The notes under the pieces: generated by a model
Database searches by the model: none
What the model was told of the DNA's origin: nothing
What the model saw: the letters and a program-made list of their open reading frames with translations, nothing else
Program-made: the position numbers and the translations under genes
From: Methanolinea sp.
GTDB lineage: Archaea; Halobacteriota; Methanomicrobia; Methanomicrobiales; Methanospirillaceae
Direction of reading: 5' to 3'
DNA length: 64,000 nucleotides
Assembly: GCA_030055515.1 (NCBI GenBank)
Contig: JASFYI010000003.1
Span: forward strand, 62,001-126,000
Shown: positions 9,985-19,626 of the stretch, piece by piece
How positions within the stretch are numbered: position 1 is the first letter of the stretch
Layout: every line of letters begins with the position of its first letter

Positions 9985-12621
9985 GCTCCCTCGCGGAATC
10001 CGGCCGCAGGACCGCTCCCCACGGAATCCCCCTGCCGGTACCACCTCCCCCGCCCCGCCGCGACGTCATTCCCCCGGTACTGGTCTCCCCCCGCCCGGGC
10101 GGGCCGTGCCGGTCACCGGGAACGCTCGTTAAGCACCGATTGGTACCCGCATGCCCGCAGTTTTTGCGGGGTGAGCCGTGGGGGAAAATCTCGAAAATCC
10201 TGCCCCTTTATTCCCACGATACCGCCCGATCTCGTCGAAGAATGATGAAAGGACATTGAACATAGAAATTCTTCGAAATTTCAGTCTAAATAGGATGGAT
10301 GGTTCAGAACCGTGGAACATCACAGGAAACCCGGAGAAAACCCTTGCCACGTCCAGGATTTCCGAGGGTCGCACGGTGCCTAAGCCGCCTCAAAAAAGCG
10401 CGTGCCTCCCGCAAGCCCCGCGTGGACGCACCGGTTTTCATCCCGGCAGGATACCCCATGTCCCCCGCGAGTGAATGCACCGTTCCGCGAGAGAGAGGGG
10501 CGTGTCGGGCATGTGGCCGGGAAAGAGGGATCGAGGCCGTTTAGGGTATTGTTCCCATTAATCCGTAATTTCAGATCCCGCGTGGCCGAGGGATATCTCA
10601 CCCGCGCCTTGGGAACACTGTCTCCCCGTCAACCACTCCCCCAATGATACATGTGAGGCTTCTTACGACTCTCCCGGGAGCGATTGAATCGCGAGGGACT
10701 GTCCCGGTGGACCGAGACCTCCTTTTTAATTCCTCTATTCCGTGTTCGGGGAGGTTTAGAGTCCGGGTTCTCTCCCGGTGGTCGATAGGGAAACACCCGG
10801 TGATTCACCGCGTCACCGTGGAGCCGTTCCCATCGTGTCCGCAAGCGCGCGGAGTATCCACGCGATTCGAGTTTTGGGATGCATTGCTGGAGTGCGACAA
10901 CGAACCCTTCCCTTTCATCGATGCTTCCTTCCCCACAGCCTGGCGGGAGGAAAGTGCCATGCCTGCCAATGACACCCGTGGGATGGATGTCCACGGCATC
11001 CCGGATACCTCCATGGCCGCCGGACATGACACGATCCCCCCGTTCCAATCCACTTTTATTCCCGCTCCGGGAACGAGCCCTCCCGCGCGAGTCCATCCTC
11101 GCCGTCGCCATGACCCAGGAATCTTCGGCATCCCGCCATCCCCCGGTCCCGGCAGCCACGAGGAATGCCTTATCCAAATATCGAATTATGTCCCTTTCTT
11201 TGAAAGACGATGCAACCAGGAGGATGGAATTTACCTGATTCTACAGGAAAAGAGGGGAATTCCAACCCCTCGCATCGAGTACCATCGCAATCGCCGGCAC
11301 GCACGAGGAGGGGATCGTTTCAATTCCGGGAGTGGAGGCGAGAGTTCCCTCCTCCCTCGTGGATATTCCTTGAACGTGCGATTCGTTCCCTGCACTCTCG
11401 GCAGCCCTCCCGAGCCCAAAATCCCCACGCCGGGATTTTGAGCGTCCACGGGCGTGTCCCGTTCCGAACATGCATGTCGTCCCGGTTCTCCCGTACCGCG
11501 CAGTACCTGCCAGGGCATCTCCCCTCTTCGCATTGCATTACCCCGTCTTGAAAACATTGTGACGATGTCCTTTCGCCCTCCGCGTTACCGGTAATGGAGT
11601 ATTCTCGCGGGTCTTTCCCTTTCATCGCCCCGCGTCCATCCGCTTTTCAATGCAGGGGAGGGGACACTGGGTCTATTCCCCCTTTCCAGTTTTATACGTG
11701 CGCTCACGGTCGCGTGAAGAGGGTCGATTCCCGCAAGAATCCCCGGGGCTGGCCACGCGGACGGATTGTTTTACGCGAGTGTTTCGCAAGGGAATGGACC
11801 CAAGCGCCTTGCGCCCCGGGGCGGCGTCACCCGGAATTCAATTCTGCAGTTGCTACGGGGAGGGGTTGCTTTCCCGTGCAACTGGGTCGACGTGAATGGC
11901 AGGTCGGGGAGACGTCCCCGGTCCGGGAGCGATTCTCCGCTCCGCAACCACTGCTCCGTTCACCCCCGGGCGGGGAAAGTGACCGCGAGATCGCCCGCCC
12001 ACGGGGAAAAAAGCCGAAAGAAATGGGATGTTTGCGTTGCTCTCCGGGAGATGTTCTCTCCCGCCGGGAAATGTATCCTTTCCCCGTTCCCAGGGCACCC
12101 GCCCGGAACGCCCCCGGATCCTCCGTGTCCCCGACGCCGGGATCGCAATCCGGTTACCCGCAGAGGGGTATCCCACCGTTCTGCATAAACCGTATAATGC
12201 GATATAACTGAGGATACCCGCGGCGACCCTTCGTGCGTGCACGACCGCGGGGGTCTGCACCCGGTTCGATCGCGAATTGAGAGTATATTCCCGCGGATGA
12301 AATCCAGGAATGTGGGCATCTCCCATCCCGTGCCGTCCCCGGGGGCGAGGTCACCGGGCCACGTCCCCGCGTGGTCAGGTGACGCGAGGGGATCCTTTTC
12401 CCGGACTGCAACTCCTGCCCCCGTTCCCGCCATCGCGGGAGACAGGGGCGGGAGCAAACGGAGATCTCCCGCGCCCGCGGAGAGCACCGCGTCCGCGCGG
12501 GTGGGTTTCTTCGAGAGGGTCCTCCCGAAAGATAAACTAAATAATGCTATATACTAGGAAATCAGATTGTCTACCGAGCCTGATCAAAAAATGGATGGAT
12601 CCACGGAGGCGGAAACCTGAA
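9985..12621. other. 2.6-kb block without credible genes, rich in short palindromes
   Basis: The open frames here are short, overlap on both strands, are rich in Arg/Pro/Ser/Gly and match nothing I recognise. Base composition is visibly less GC-rich than in flanking genes. Short perfect inverted repeats are common, for example at 10154-10170 (CCCGCA/TGCGGG), 10235-10276 (TCGAAGAAT/ATTCTTCGA), 10671-10705 (three in a row), 10798-10810, 11252-11271 and 11585-11594. TATA-like elements occur near 11690 and 12190, and one near 12545 probably serves the next gene. I see no tRNA, rRNA, CRISPR array or long direct repeat. Confidence 0.6.
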
Positions 12622-15365: not shown

Positions 15366-15456
15366 CGTCACCTTTTTTGCACCCGGAATTTCGGGAGGAG
15401 CACTCCCTTTCCCGCCTTTCATAAACCATATGTCGCGATACAAATGCCGGGCGCGG

Positions 15457-15810
15457 ATGGAAATGCAGATAACGTTTCGCGTGGCAGATACACCGGGGAT
15501 CACTCCTGTGGGAGCGTCGTGGGAGCCGACCCGGAGCAAGACCATCGAGGTCCGGATCGCGGGGAGGGTGCAGAAGGTCGGACTCAGGAACTGCGTCCGC
15601 CACATCGCGGGGAAGCTCAACATCAGGGGCGAGGTGATGAACCTGCCCGACGGGACCGTGAAGATCACCGCGAGCGGAGACCCTCTCACGCTCGACAAGT
15701 TCGTCTCGATGATCTACGGGTGCCCGCGGGCCCACATCCGTGACATGGAGATCTGCGAGGTCCCCTTCAGGTCATTCCCCGACTTCTCGGTCGTTTACCC
15801 TGCGGAGTGA
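15457..15810 (+). CDS. Acylphosphatase
   Basis: Residues from about 30 on form an acylphosphatase domain: AGRVQKVGLRNCVR contains the phosphate-binding loop and catalytic Arg, and NLPDGTVKI carries the catalytic Asn. The enzyme hydrolyses acyl phosphates such as 1,3-bisphosphoglycerate or carbamoyl phosphate in the cytosol. An N-terminal extension of roughly 25 residues is not part of the domain. A TATA-like TTTCATAAAC near 15418 predicts initiation around 15445, so the start is probably ATG 15457 rather than 15430. In the usual GxVQGVGFR loop, Gly and Phe are replaced by Lys and Leu here. Its 3' end overlaps the opposite-strand Cas1 gene by 39 bases. Confidence 0.82.
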   Translation: MEMQITFRVADTPGITPVGASWEPTRSKTIEVRIAGRVQKVGLRNCVRHIAGKLNIRGEVMNLPDGTVKITASGDPLTLDKFVSMIYGCPRAHIRDMEICEVPFRSFPDFSVVYPAE

Positions 15811-16779
15811 CCCGTCCTCCGGGACCTTCACGACGAACTCCGTCTTCTTCAGGAGTGAGTTCTTCAGGGCGAGGACGTGGGAATCAATCGTTTCCTGCCG
15901 GATCGTGCGGGAGAGCCTCCCGAGGATCTCGTGGATGAGGTCGTCGGAGAGGATGCACCGGTCCTGCCCGCACTCGTAGTCGTCGCCCGAGAGCCCCTCC
16001 CTCGCGATGGAGAAGACGGGGTCATCGACCATCGCGGGCCGGAAAGGGTCGCACAGGTCGTGCACGAGCGCCCCCGGTCCCTTCGAGAGGAAACCGACGT
16101 CCGGGTCGAGGTGTGCCCCGACGACCGCGACGCACACGTTCCCGAAGAGGATACCGTGCGCGAAGGAGAGCATCGCGTTGACGGGATCCCTGTGGGGCCG
16201 CGGGAGCCGGCGGCGGAACCCGAGGCCGGGGGGGACGGTCCGCGCGAGGACCTCGTAGTACATGTCGGATATCAGCCTGTGCACCCTCCGGACCTCCTCG
16301 AGCCTGACGAGGTACTCGAGCTCCGCGAGGCTCTTTTCGAGTATCTCGAGCTCGCCCTCGTAGAAGAGGGGCCGGCCGAGCCTCTCCTGTAACCGGGTGA
16401 GGGAGAGGATCCGCGCGTGGCCACTCCCCTTCGCGAGTGCGAGAGCGTAGGAGTGGGGGAATGCCTGTGCCTGCGCCTCCCTCACGACCTCATCGTGGCG
16501 GAACCCGAAGGGCTCGAGGAACCCGAGCGGCTCGCCGTCGGCGCTGAAGAACGAGATGCATGACCCCGCGGAGAGGAGGCGCTGGACCACGGACGTGTGG
16601 AGGGTGTGCCCTCCCATGACGAGGAGGTGCCGGATCCCGGCGATCGGTATCTCGTCGACGCGGCCCTTCTTCTGGACGACGAGGGCACGGGGCGTTGCCT
16701 TGATGTGCGCCCCGAATCCGGACACGAGGAACCACGGGACCTCCCCGTCGCCGTTCTTTTCCATGCCTGTCTCGCGCAC
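15772..16779 (-). CDS. cas1: Stand-alone Cas1-family protein, probably catalytically inactive
   Basis: The 335-residue product has the two-part Cas1 layout. An N-terminal beta domain (about residues 16-90, with HTLHTSVVQRLLSAG and SFFSADGEPLG) is followed by a helical domain with the signature RDPVNAMLSF at 197-206 and LDPDVGFL at 224-231. Canonical Cas1 has a metal-binding Glu about 13 residues after the motif Asn and a His after GF(L/V). Here those places hold N214 (or C216 in an E. coli-like alignment) and S232. The later Asp pair D241/D244 is kept. No cas2, other cas gene or CRISPR array is in the window, nor a family B polymerase as in casposons. ATG 16764 is an alternative start. It has its own TATA box. 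Confidence 0.85.
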   Translation of the reverse strand: MRETGMEKNGDGEVPWFLVSGFGAHIKATPRALVVQKKGRVDEIPIAGIRHLLVMGGHTLHTSVVQRLLSAGSCISFFSADGEPLGFLEPFGFRHDEVVREAQAQAFPHSYALALAKGSGHARILSLTRLQERLGRPLFYEGELEILEKSLAELEYLVRLEEVRRVHRLISDMYYEVLARTVPPGLGFRRRLPRPHRDPVNAMLSFAHGILFGNVCVAVVGAHLDPDVGFLSKGPGALVHDLCDPFRPAMVDDPVFSIAREGLSGDDYECGQDRCILSDDLIHEILGRLSRTIRQETIDSHVLALKNSLLKKTEFVVKVPEDGSLRRVNDREVGE

Positions 16780-16812: not shown

Positions 16813-16820
16813 CATAAATA
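16813..16820 (-). promoter_or_regulatory. TATA box of the cas1-like gene
   Basis: On the minus strand the element reads TATTTATG in an otherwise GC-rich spacer. Initiation about 26 bases downstream would fall near 16790, giving a leader of roughly 10-25 bases to the GTG at 16779 or ATG at 16764. An intact promoter argues that the gene is expressed rather than decaying. Confidence 0.5.
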
Positions 16821-16996
16821 CCACGGTATCCCGCGGGGTCTTTCAGGCGCGGCGGGAATGCCATGCCATGACTTGGCAATATTTTTCACCCCCCGGCACG
16901 AGTTTATGAGAGTGTGACGAATCCCGTCCCCCGCGGGATGTTTTCCGGGTGCCCGGCGGGATGACACGACGGGATAACTGGTGAGAGAATGCGGGA

Positions 16997-18325
16997 ATGG
17001 CCAAAAATAGCGGTTCTCGGGGTATGGTGAACATGTACTGGGACGAGAAACACGAGACCCTCCCGAAAAAGGAGCTCGAGCGCCTCCAGCTCAAGCGGCT
17101 CAAGAAGACGCTCGTCCATGTCCAGAACGTGGAGTTTTACAGGAGGCAGTTCCGGGAGGCGGGGATAAGACCGTCGGATATAAAGACGCTCGAGGACGTG
17201 CAAAAGCTCCCCTTCACCCGCAAACAGGACCTCCGCGACGGGTACCCGTTCGGGTTCTTCGCGGTCCCCATCCACGAGGTCGTGCGCATCCACACCACGT
17301 CCGGGACGACCGGGAAGCCCACCGTCGTCGGTTATACGAAGAAGGACCTCAGGACGTGGGCGAACCTCATCGCGAGGAACATGACGATGGTCGGGCTCAC
17401 CGACAGGGACATATTCCAAAACATGGTCAATTACGGGATGTTCACGGGGGGGCTCGGGTTCCACTACGGGGCAGAGCTGATCGGGATGACGGTGATCCCG
17501 AGCGCCACGGGGAACACCCGCAGGCAGATCGAGATGATCCACGACTTCGGGGTGACCGCCATCCACTGCACCCCTAGCTACGCCCTCCACCTCGCCGAGG
17601 TCGCAGAGGAGATGGGAACGGGCCTTGACTCGCTCCGGACAGGCCTCTTCGGGGCGGAACCGTGGTCCGAGTCCATGAGGAAGGAACTCGAGAACAAGCT
17701 GGGCGTGACGGCGTACGACTCGTACGGGCTCTCGGAACTGTTCGGGCCGGGCGTCGCATTCGAGTGCACCGAACGCGACGGCCTCCACATCTGGCACGAC
17801 TGCTACCTCGTCGAGATTGTCGATCCCTCGACGGGGGAAGTCCTCGGAGAGGGCGAGAAGGGGGAGATGGTCGTCACGCCGCTCGTAAAAGAGGCAATGC
17901 CCCTCGTCAGGTACAGGACCGGCGACATCACGATGCTCCTTGGAGACGGGTGCGCGTGCGGCCGGGGCCAGAAGATCGCACGTATCATGGGCAGGAGCGA
18001 TGATATGCTTGTGATAAGGGGGATCAACGTGTTTCCATCCCAGATAGAACATGTGCTCCTCGGCATCCCGGAGGTGGGGAACCAGTTCATGGTGTACGTG
18101 GACAGGGTCAACCACCTCGACGAGCTGACGATCGAGGTGGAGGTCAACAGGGAGTACTTCTCCGGTGAGCTCCAGGACCTCGCGAGGATACAGAGAAAGG
18201 TTGTGAAGGAACTCCGCGACGCGCTCGATCTCCGGACGACCGTGAAACTCGTGGAACCGGGATCGCTTCCCCGGTTCGAGGGGAAGGCAAAGAGGGTCAT
18301 CGACAGGAGGGGGGATAGCGTGTGA
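16997..18325 (+). CDS. paaK: Phenylacetate--CoA ligase family protein (first of two)
   Basis: The 442-residue AMP-forming ligase carries the adenylate motif TSGTTGKPT near residue 105 and GLFGAEPWSE. It also has DSYGLSE, the RYRTGD hinge region and the C-terminal lysine loop EGKAKRV. Family members activate phenylacetate and related aryl acids to CoA thioesters. In methanogens they are linked to indolepyruvate oxidoreductase and aromatic amino acid synthesis from exogenous aryl acids. The next gene is a paralogue overlapping by four bases, followed by an ACT protein, the usual order of this cluster. The start is uncertain; ATGs at 17024 and 17033 would fit the family N-terminus (MYWDEKHE) equally well. 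Confidence 0.88.
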   Translation: MAKNSGSRGMVNMYWDEKHETLPKKELERLQLKRLKKTLVHVQNVEFYRRQFREAGIRPSDIKTLEDVQKLPFTRKQDLRDGYPFGFFAVPIHEVVRIHTTSGTTGKPTVVGYTKKDLRTWANLIARNMTMVGLTDRDIFQNMVNYGMFTGGLGFHYGAELIGMTVIPSATGNTRRQIEMIHDFGVTAIHCTPSYALHLAEVAEEMGTGLDSLRTGLFGAEPWSESMRKELENKLGVTAYDSYGLSELFGPGVAFECTERDGLHIWHDCYLVEIVDPSTGEVLGEGEKGEMVVTPLVKEAMPLVRYRTGDITMLLGDGCACGRGQKIARIMGRSDDMLVIRGINVFPSQIEHVLLGIPEVGNQFMVYVDRVNHLDELTIEVEVNREYFSGELQDLARIQRKVVKELRDALDLRTTVKLVEPGSLPRFEGKAKRVIDRRGDSV

Positions 18326-19626
18326 CGGGCGCGTGGGACCCCCGGATTGAGTACATGCCGCAGGAGGACTTGAGGAAACTCCAGTACCGGCTCTTGAAGA
18401 CACTCGTGTACAGGCTCTACAGTTTCTCCCCATTCTACCACCGCCGCATGGAGGAGGCGCGGGTCCACCCCGACGACATAAGGGCCCTCGAGGACATACG
18501 GAAACTCCCCTTCATGTACAAGAAGGATCTCCGCGACAATTACCCCGACAAGCTCTTCGTCGTGCCCCAGGAAGACCTCGTCAGGTACCACGTCTCGTCC
18601 GGCACGACGGGAAAGCCCACGGTCGTCGGGTACACGGAGAGGGACCTTGAGAACTGGACGATCTCGCTCGCCCGCGCCCTCGTCTCCTGCGGGCTCGGTC
18701 GGGGTGACGTGATCCAGGTGAGCTACGGGTACGGCCTCTTCACGGGCGGGCTCGGGCTCCACTACGGGGCCGAGCGGATCGGCGCGACGGTGCTCCCGAC
18801 GAGCGTGGGGAACACGGAACGGCAGATCGAGCTGATGCAGGACCTCGGCGCGACGGCGATCGCCTGCACGCCGTCCTACCTCCTCCACATCGGGGAGGTC
18901 GCGGAGAAGATGGGGGTGAGCATCCCCCACGACACAAAGCTGAGGGTGGGGATCCTCGGCGCCGAACCGTGGTCCGAGAACATGCGCCGGCGCATCCAGG
19001 AGTGGCTCGGGATCAAGGCATACGACATCTACGGGACGAGCGAGCTCTACGGCCCGCTGTTCTGCGAGTGCACGGAGCAGAAGGGCTTCCACGTCTGGGG
19101 AGACCTCGCGTACGTCGAGGTCCTCGACCCCAAGACGCAGGAACCGCTCCCGCCCGGGGAACGCGGCGAGCTCGTCTTCACCATGCTCCAGAAGGAGGCA
19201 ATGCCCCTCGTCAGGTACAGGATCGGGGACATAAGCTCTCTCGAGGAGGGCATCTGTCCCTGCGGGAGGACGCACCCCCGCGTCCAGAGGATCACCGGGA
19301 GGGTGGACGACATGCTGATCATCCGCGGGATCAACGTCTTCCCCTCGCAGGTAGAGTACGCCCTGATGACCATCCCCGAGGTCGGCAAGCACTTCCAGAT
19401 CATCGTCGACAGGAAGGGGGCGCTCGACGACATGCTCGTCCAGGTGGAGCTCTCGCCGGAGGCGTTCTCTGACAAGATCCCGGACCTGATGCAGGTCAAG
19501 AAGAAGGTCGAGCACAGGTTGAAGAGCATCCTCAACGTGGGCGTGTCCGTGGAACTCGTCGAGCCGGGTTCCCTCCCCCGGTTCGAGGGTAAGGCAAAGA
19601 GGGTCATCGACAGGAGGAAGTTCTGA
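18322..19626 (+). CDS. paaK: Phenylacetate--CoA ligase family protein (second of two)
   Basis: This 434-residue protein aligns end to end with the preceding ligase: SSGTTGKPTVVGYT, GILGAEPWSE, DIYGTSELYG, RYRIGD and the shared end PRFEGKAKRVIDRR. The pair looks like a local duplication that has since diverged substantially. The GTG start overlaps the upstream TGA. Two copies may give two aryl-acid specificities (for instance phenylacetate and indoleacetate or 4-hydroxyphenylacetate) or an obligate pair; the sequence does not decide this. Confidence 0.88.
   Translation: MTGAWDPRIEYMPQEDLRKLQYRLLKTLVYRLYSFSPFYHRRMEEARVHPDDIRALEDIRKLPFMYKKDLRDNYPDKLFVVPQEDLVRYHVSSGTTGKPTVVGYTERDLENWTISLARALVSCGLGRGDVIQVSYGYGLFTGGLGLHYGAERIGATVLPTSVGNTERQIELMQDLGATAIACTPSYLLHIGEVAEKMGVSIPHDTKLRVGILGAEPWSENMRRRIQEWLGIKAYDIYGTSELYGPLFCECTEQKGFHVWGDLAYVEVLDPKTQEPLPPGERGELVFTMLQKEAMPLVRYRIGDISSLEEGICPCGRTHPRVQRITGRVDDMLIIRGINVFPSQVEYALMTIPEVGKHFQIIVDRKGALDDMLVQVELSPEAFSDKIPDLMQVKKKVEHRLKSILNVGVSVELVEPGSLPRFEGKAKRVIDRRKF

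Follow-up and report, generated by a model that had tools for sequence, protein, structure and literature searches.

A full-length Cas1 homologue without its catalytic site is a domesticated core gene of the archaeal order Methanomicrobiales and is not decaying. Cas1 is the enzyme by which CRISPR arrays gain new memories, and it is usually viewed as bound to mobile or immune functions. The retention of a dead Cas1 by nearly all members of an order, even in genomes with no detected CRISPR adaptation genes, shows an integrase exapted for a role in cell physiology. Here we describe the fold, the loss of the catalytic tetrad, the order-wide presence, the vertical descent, the purifying selection and the CRISPR independence computed for this gene (cas1-solo), as seen from the copy in the window, the whole 64-kb stretch of Methanolinea sp. 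DNA analysed here. From these we infer how the protein may dimerise, bind DNA and serve the cell. The reading that we favour, with somewhat better than even confidence, is a dead Cas1 domesticated as a vertically inherited, CRISPR-independent core gene, whose dimer would still bind DNA but would neither cut nor join it.

Minus-strand positions 15772-16779 form an open frame whose product is a Cas1 of full length (PF01867, 174 bits, E 5e-51, 269 residues matched; TIGR00287 of NCBIfam, 135 bits). The RDPVNAMLSF and GFL landmarks, which the first-pass annotation had noted in a Cas1-like protein, are present, and the nearest PDB sequences are Cas1 proteins. The ATG at 16764 (330 aa) is a likelier start than the GTG at 16779 (335 aa); residue numbers used here are counted from the GTG, as in the 335-aa version (Table 1). 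An AlphaFold2 model built with 83 orthologues as input has a mean pLDDT of 93.9. Its match to Cas1 spans the whole length (Foldseek and VIA-align), and the closest solved fold is that of a casposase in complex with its integration product (6opm_B, Z 29.7, 309 residues). The predicted model thus has the Cas1 fold of a CRISPR adaptation Cas1.

Table 1. Features of the cas1-solo locus and related loci (window positions unless a locus or contig is named)
Feature	Position	Strand	Details
cas1-solo (group 1) CDS	15772..16764	-	ATG start, 330 aa; PF01867, TIGR00287, AlphaFold2, casposase fold
R165-V166-H167	16279..16287	-	H167 = catalytic Glu column; R165 in place of preceding Gly
S232	16084..16086	-	Catalytic His column (E. 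coli H208)
D241	16057..16059	-	E. coli D218 column
D244	16048..16050	-	E. coli D221 column
TATA-like GTATTTATG upstream of cas1-solo	16813..16821	-	From sequence
Acylphosphatase gene	15430..15810	+	PF00708, E 1.5e-15; synteny
Protein of ~1,190-1,210 aa, examples	L079:10209-13844	-	Also L154-L156
Two CRISPR loci of the window's genome	L095 (G000:C2:360000-376000), L096 (G000:C2:336000-353000)

Four residues of E. coli Cas1, E141, H208, D218 and D221, are each required, and mutation of any one abolishes activity (as cited in PMC4046053). We aligned E. coli K-12 Cas1, taken from its record, with 99 orthologues of cas1-solo and 9 canonical Cas1s. In two MAFFT alignments the four columns correspond to H167, S232, D241 and D244 of the window protein. 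Pairwise HMMER alignments to solved Cas1s also place E141 at H167, and a profile-profile alignment (hhalign, 99.96%) agrees with the MAFFT register around the catalytic columns. The first-pass annotation had put the catalytic Glu at N214 or C216. These residues lie about 50 positions downstream of the Glu column, where canonical Cas1s also lack a conserved acid, and because E141 aligns with H167 in the MAFFT and hhalign alignments neither is the catalytic Glu. Its placement of S232 at the catalytic His, and of D241 and D244 as the remaining Asp pair, agrees with the alignments.

No orthologue has the complete Glu-His-Asp-Asp/Glu tetrad (0/99), and the window protein reads H-S-D-D. The Glu column is mostly His (H63 S11 F9 Y5), with Glu or Asp in only 6 orthologues, none of which has the rest of the tetrad. 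The His column is more mixed (H52 R13 S8 N8 Y8). D241 is invariant (99/99), and the D244 column keeps an acid in 94 of 99 (E49 D45 N5). The loss of the tetrad is therefore shared by all 99 orthologues. Where canonical Cas1s have Gly-x-Glu-Gly, the orthologues read Arg-x-(His/Ser/Phe/Tyr)-(Arg/Lys). R165 is the same in all 99, and W16, H58, Q103, E143, Y174, E176, R180, D252 and C275 are also invariant among them. As read from these aligned columns, the old site is swapped for a new conserved set rather than randomly decayed. The loss goes back to the ancestor of the whole order and is not particular to the window protein.

Orthologues of cas1-solo were found in 217 of 232 Methanomicrobiales genomes and in 133 of the 135 that are near complete. 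None was seen outside the order in a 393-genome sample of Halobacteriota, where the best match (E 3e-27, 27% identity) is at the level of an ordinary Cas1; in bacteria at large the search covered close relatives only. Viral contigs and phage records held no relatives and plasmids gave ordinary CRISPR cas1 only, and a mobile or viral origin of the clade was rejected on this evidence. Against 10 canonical Cas1s the orthologues form one clade (97% SH-aLRT). Families are nearly monophyletic within it, with 7 label changes where the minimum is 6 and shuffled labels give 55. These counts fit vertical descent, and inheritance looks vertical in a tree that has long branches and was built with a quick search method. 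One genome of the same genus carries two copies (G144:C101:7427-8344 and G144:C67:6558-7472), from duplication or mixed strains.

Selection on the gene is purifying, with a median dN/dS of 0.16 over 147 pairwise comparisons. Recent inactivation is ruled out because the tetrad is lost order-wide and selection is purifying. The suggestion of the first-pass annotation that the integrase site was lost while the gene was kept thus stands on the missing tetrad, the dN/dS and the near-universal presence, although its mapping of the Glu does not; its remark that the gene is not obviously decaying is borne out.

In the window the acylphosphatase gene and cas1-solo lie tail to tail, with a 3' overlap of 39 bp. 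The neighbourhood is shared with the orthologues: the convergent arrangement is common to 108 of 122 loci of the order, and the ends often overlap. The acylphosphatase gene does not adjoin cas1-solo in four genera (g4, g9, g13 and g25), whose genomes have acylphosphatases elsewhere. Because cas1-solo remains when the acylphosphatase lies elsewhere, the pair is a conserved synteny and an obligate partnership is ruled out. The other neighbours are GlmM, MobB-like and PaaK-like genes. Two PaaK-like (AMP-binding) genes stand in tandem in the window (16997-18325 and 18322-19626, plus strand), divergent from cas1-solo and with an ACT-domain gene after them. In 34 of the 59 long loci the acylphosphatase gene has beside it a gene for a protein of about 1,190-1,210 aa that matches nothing in Pfam or NCBIfam. 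Further away, about 2.5 kb of the window (~10000-12540) holds no recognised gene; six of its larger ORFs have no Pfam match, and a 34-nt stretch is its only match to related loci. No polB adjoins cas1-solo in the loci examined, in line with what had been reported from the window, and no convincing terminal inverted repeats were found in the window. A casposon remnant is ruled out on these two grounds.

The conserved residues could be taken to mean that the protein gained a new enzymatic activity through group-specific invariant positions around the old active site. The strong invariance of H58, E143, R165, E176, R180, D241, R274 and C275 is not relaxed drift and would suit such a gain. However, some invariant residues are also found in canonical Cas1s, the invariance could be structural, and the gene has no constant partner in a metabolic operon, the acylphosphatase gene being convergent and in four genera not adjoining. 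We consider a new enzyme unlikely. Quite improbable, too, is a protein that is still a nuclease or integrase, its metal site rebuilt with other acids in place of the Glu. Such a site could draw on the invariant D241, the second Asp or Glu, the His kept at its column in about half of the orthologues, and E162 and E176 as candidate acids. The rare acids at the Glu column never come with the rest of the tetrad, however; the glycines on either side of the Glu, next to the metal site, have given way to Arg and Arg/Lys; and the E. coli enzyme does not tolerate mutation of any of the four residues.

Roughly two thirds of loci share an element, CGATGNATTRATS, in the promoter region of cas1-solo. Motif estimation gives it as AAACGATGNATTRATSTA, at a fixed distance upstream of the gene in 65 of 99 loci and in 46 of the 59 long loci, and it is also present where the divergent PaaK-like gene is missing. 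It is found at no other neighbouring genes except as weak matches at one family. The window's gene has lost the element and has instead the putative TATA-like GTATTTATG, about 50 nt upstream; at this place 11 of 12 aligned same-genus loci, the window not among them, have CGATGCATTGA(T/A)GTA or a close variant. Genera g13, g15 and g25 are among those without the element. Exact matches to AWCGATGNATTRATS number 56 in the 135 genomes, and about 30 of them are at cas1-solo. Scattered extra matches, which were not inspected one by one, come to about 26 against 4 in a reversed-pattern control. No further repeated target is apparent among the 135 genomes, and a regulon that shares the element was rejected.

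The simplest reading of the element is a core promoter, because it sits at the expected BRE/TATA site and has an A/T-rich stretch about 20 bp after it. It might instead be the operator of a sequence-specific autoregulator, cas1-solo binding its own promoter, which we think rather doubtful. The fixed spacing regardless of the upstream neighbour, the share of exact matches that fall at cas1-solo and the near absence from neighbouring genes speak for an operator; the core-promoter position and the loss from the window's gene and several genera speak against it. A control from the same neighbourhood weighs further on that side. The nearby DUF5806 gene has a conserved 10-mer of its own, TAAACCATAT, upstream of window position 12544 in 28 of 44 loci, possibly that gene's own promoter. 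Gene-specific conserved promoters are thus not special, and because of this control we tone down how particular the element is to cas1-solo. The bolder version, in which a Cas1 integrase turned once into the order's core DNA-binding regulator or architectural factor, recognising for example the element at its own promoter, is a long shot.

Independence from CRISPR was seen both in the window and across the order. No CRISPR array was found in the 64 kb and no cas2 was seen among its annotated genes, as had been stated earlier. The genome does have two CRISPR adaptation loci on another contig, one with cas1 and cas2 close to an array of 21 repeats and the other of type I-E with more than 100 repeats, but each has its own cas1, and cas1-solo is genetically unlinked to any cas2 or array, which sets it apart from a CRISPR adaptation Cas1. 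In 46 of the 135 near-complete genomes (counted from result tables; 6 of the 46 are single-contig) cas1-solo is the sole PF01867 match and no Cas2 was detected with PF09827, the only Cas2 profile used (not PF09707) and one that misses some type I-E Cas2 proteins. Retained without CRISPR machinery, the gene therefore probably has another household job. In Cas1-Cas2 complexes only one subunit per Cas1 dimer is catalytic, and cas1-solo could in principle serve adaptation in trans, for instance as a non-catalytic subunit in mixed dimers with the CRISPR Cas1s that the window's genome possesses, but it is unlinked to any CRISPR locus, far more universal than CRISPR systems and kept in those 46 genomes, and we hold this to be very unlikely.

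The domesticated, non-cutting Cas1 that we favour would have arisen as follows. A Cas1 would have entered the ancestor of the Methanomicrobiales and there lost its metal-binding Glu, the flanking glycines becoming Arg or Lys, while the complete two-domain fold was retained. Thereafter it would have been inherited vertically in single copy, a CRISPR-independent core gene on which selection is purifying. The dimer may bind branched or bent DNA or a specific site with no cutting or joining, and its role as a DNA-binding protein may be architectural, protective or regulatory. Given the retained fold, the equivalent of E. coli R163 kept as R191 (98/99) and that of K224 kept as K/R247 (86/99), non-catalytic DNA binding is the most likely mechanism, and such a role is our best guess from the sequences. 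R59, R66, R84 and R248 of E. coli Cas1, which we take to be DNA-contacting, have no basic equivalent in cas1-solo and are missing in many canonical Cas1s too. The median net charge is -5 and the pI 6.2, unfavourable to strong non-specific DNA binding. Because of this charge and the absence of several E. coli contact arginines, the DNA-binding step is put forward conditionally. No expression data for cas1-solo were found. Its function can be tested directly in culturable Methanomicrobiales, given the clean distribution and the invariant residues listed above.

The window protein is a member of Cas1-solo group 1, a group named since 2013, by its published description rather than by comparison with named group-1 sequences. 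As summarised by Krupovic et al. 2014 (PMC4046053) after Makarova et al. 2013, group 1 is restricted to Methanomicrobiales and lies outside CRISPR loci, shows no sign of horizontal transfer, and lacks at least one of the four active-site residues in every member. The order restriction, the incomplete tetrad, the non-CRISPR locus and the vertical clade of its own are all shared by the window protein, and nothing in it is disqualifying. In 2014 group 1 was passed over for the casposons, and our literature search of open-licence papers found no functional study of it; one may exist. To the known group we add its universality, selection, residue mapping, CRISPR independence, acylphosphatase synteny and the promoter-region element.

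The casposases (Cas1-solo group 2; 6opm) are stand-alone Cas1s like the window protein and its best structural match (Z 29.7). However, they keep the four catalytic residues, whereas the window protein has H167 and S232 for Glu and His, and they reside in polB-bearing elements with inverted repeats, neither of which is found at cas1-solo, where chromosomal neighbours are conserved. With the CRISPR-associated Cas1s of E. coli, A. fulgidus and Synechocystis, cas1-solo has in common the two-domain fold and many core residues, such as R191, P195, D198, N201, D241 and D252. It differs from them in its lack of linkage to cas2 or CRISPR and in the replacement of the catalytic Glu and often of the His.
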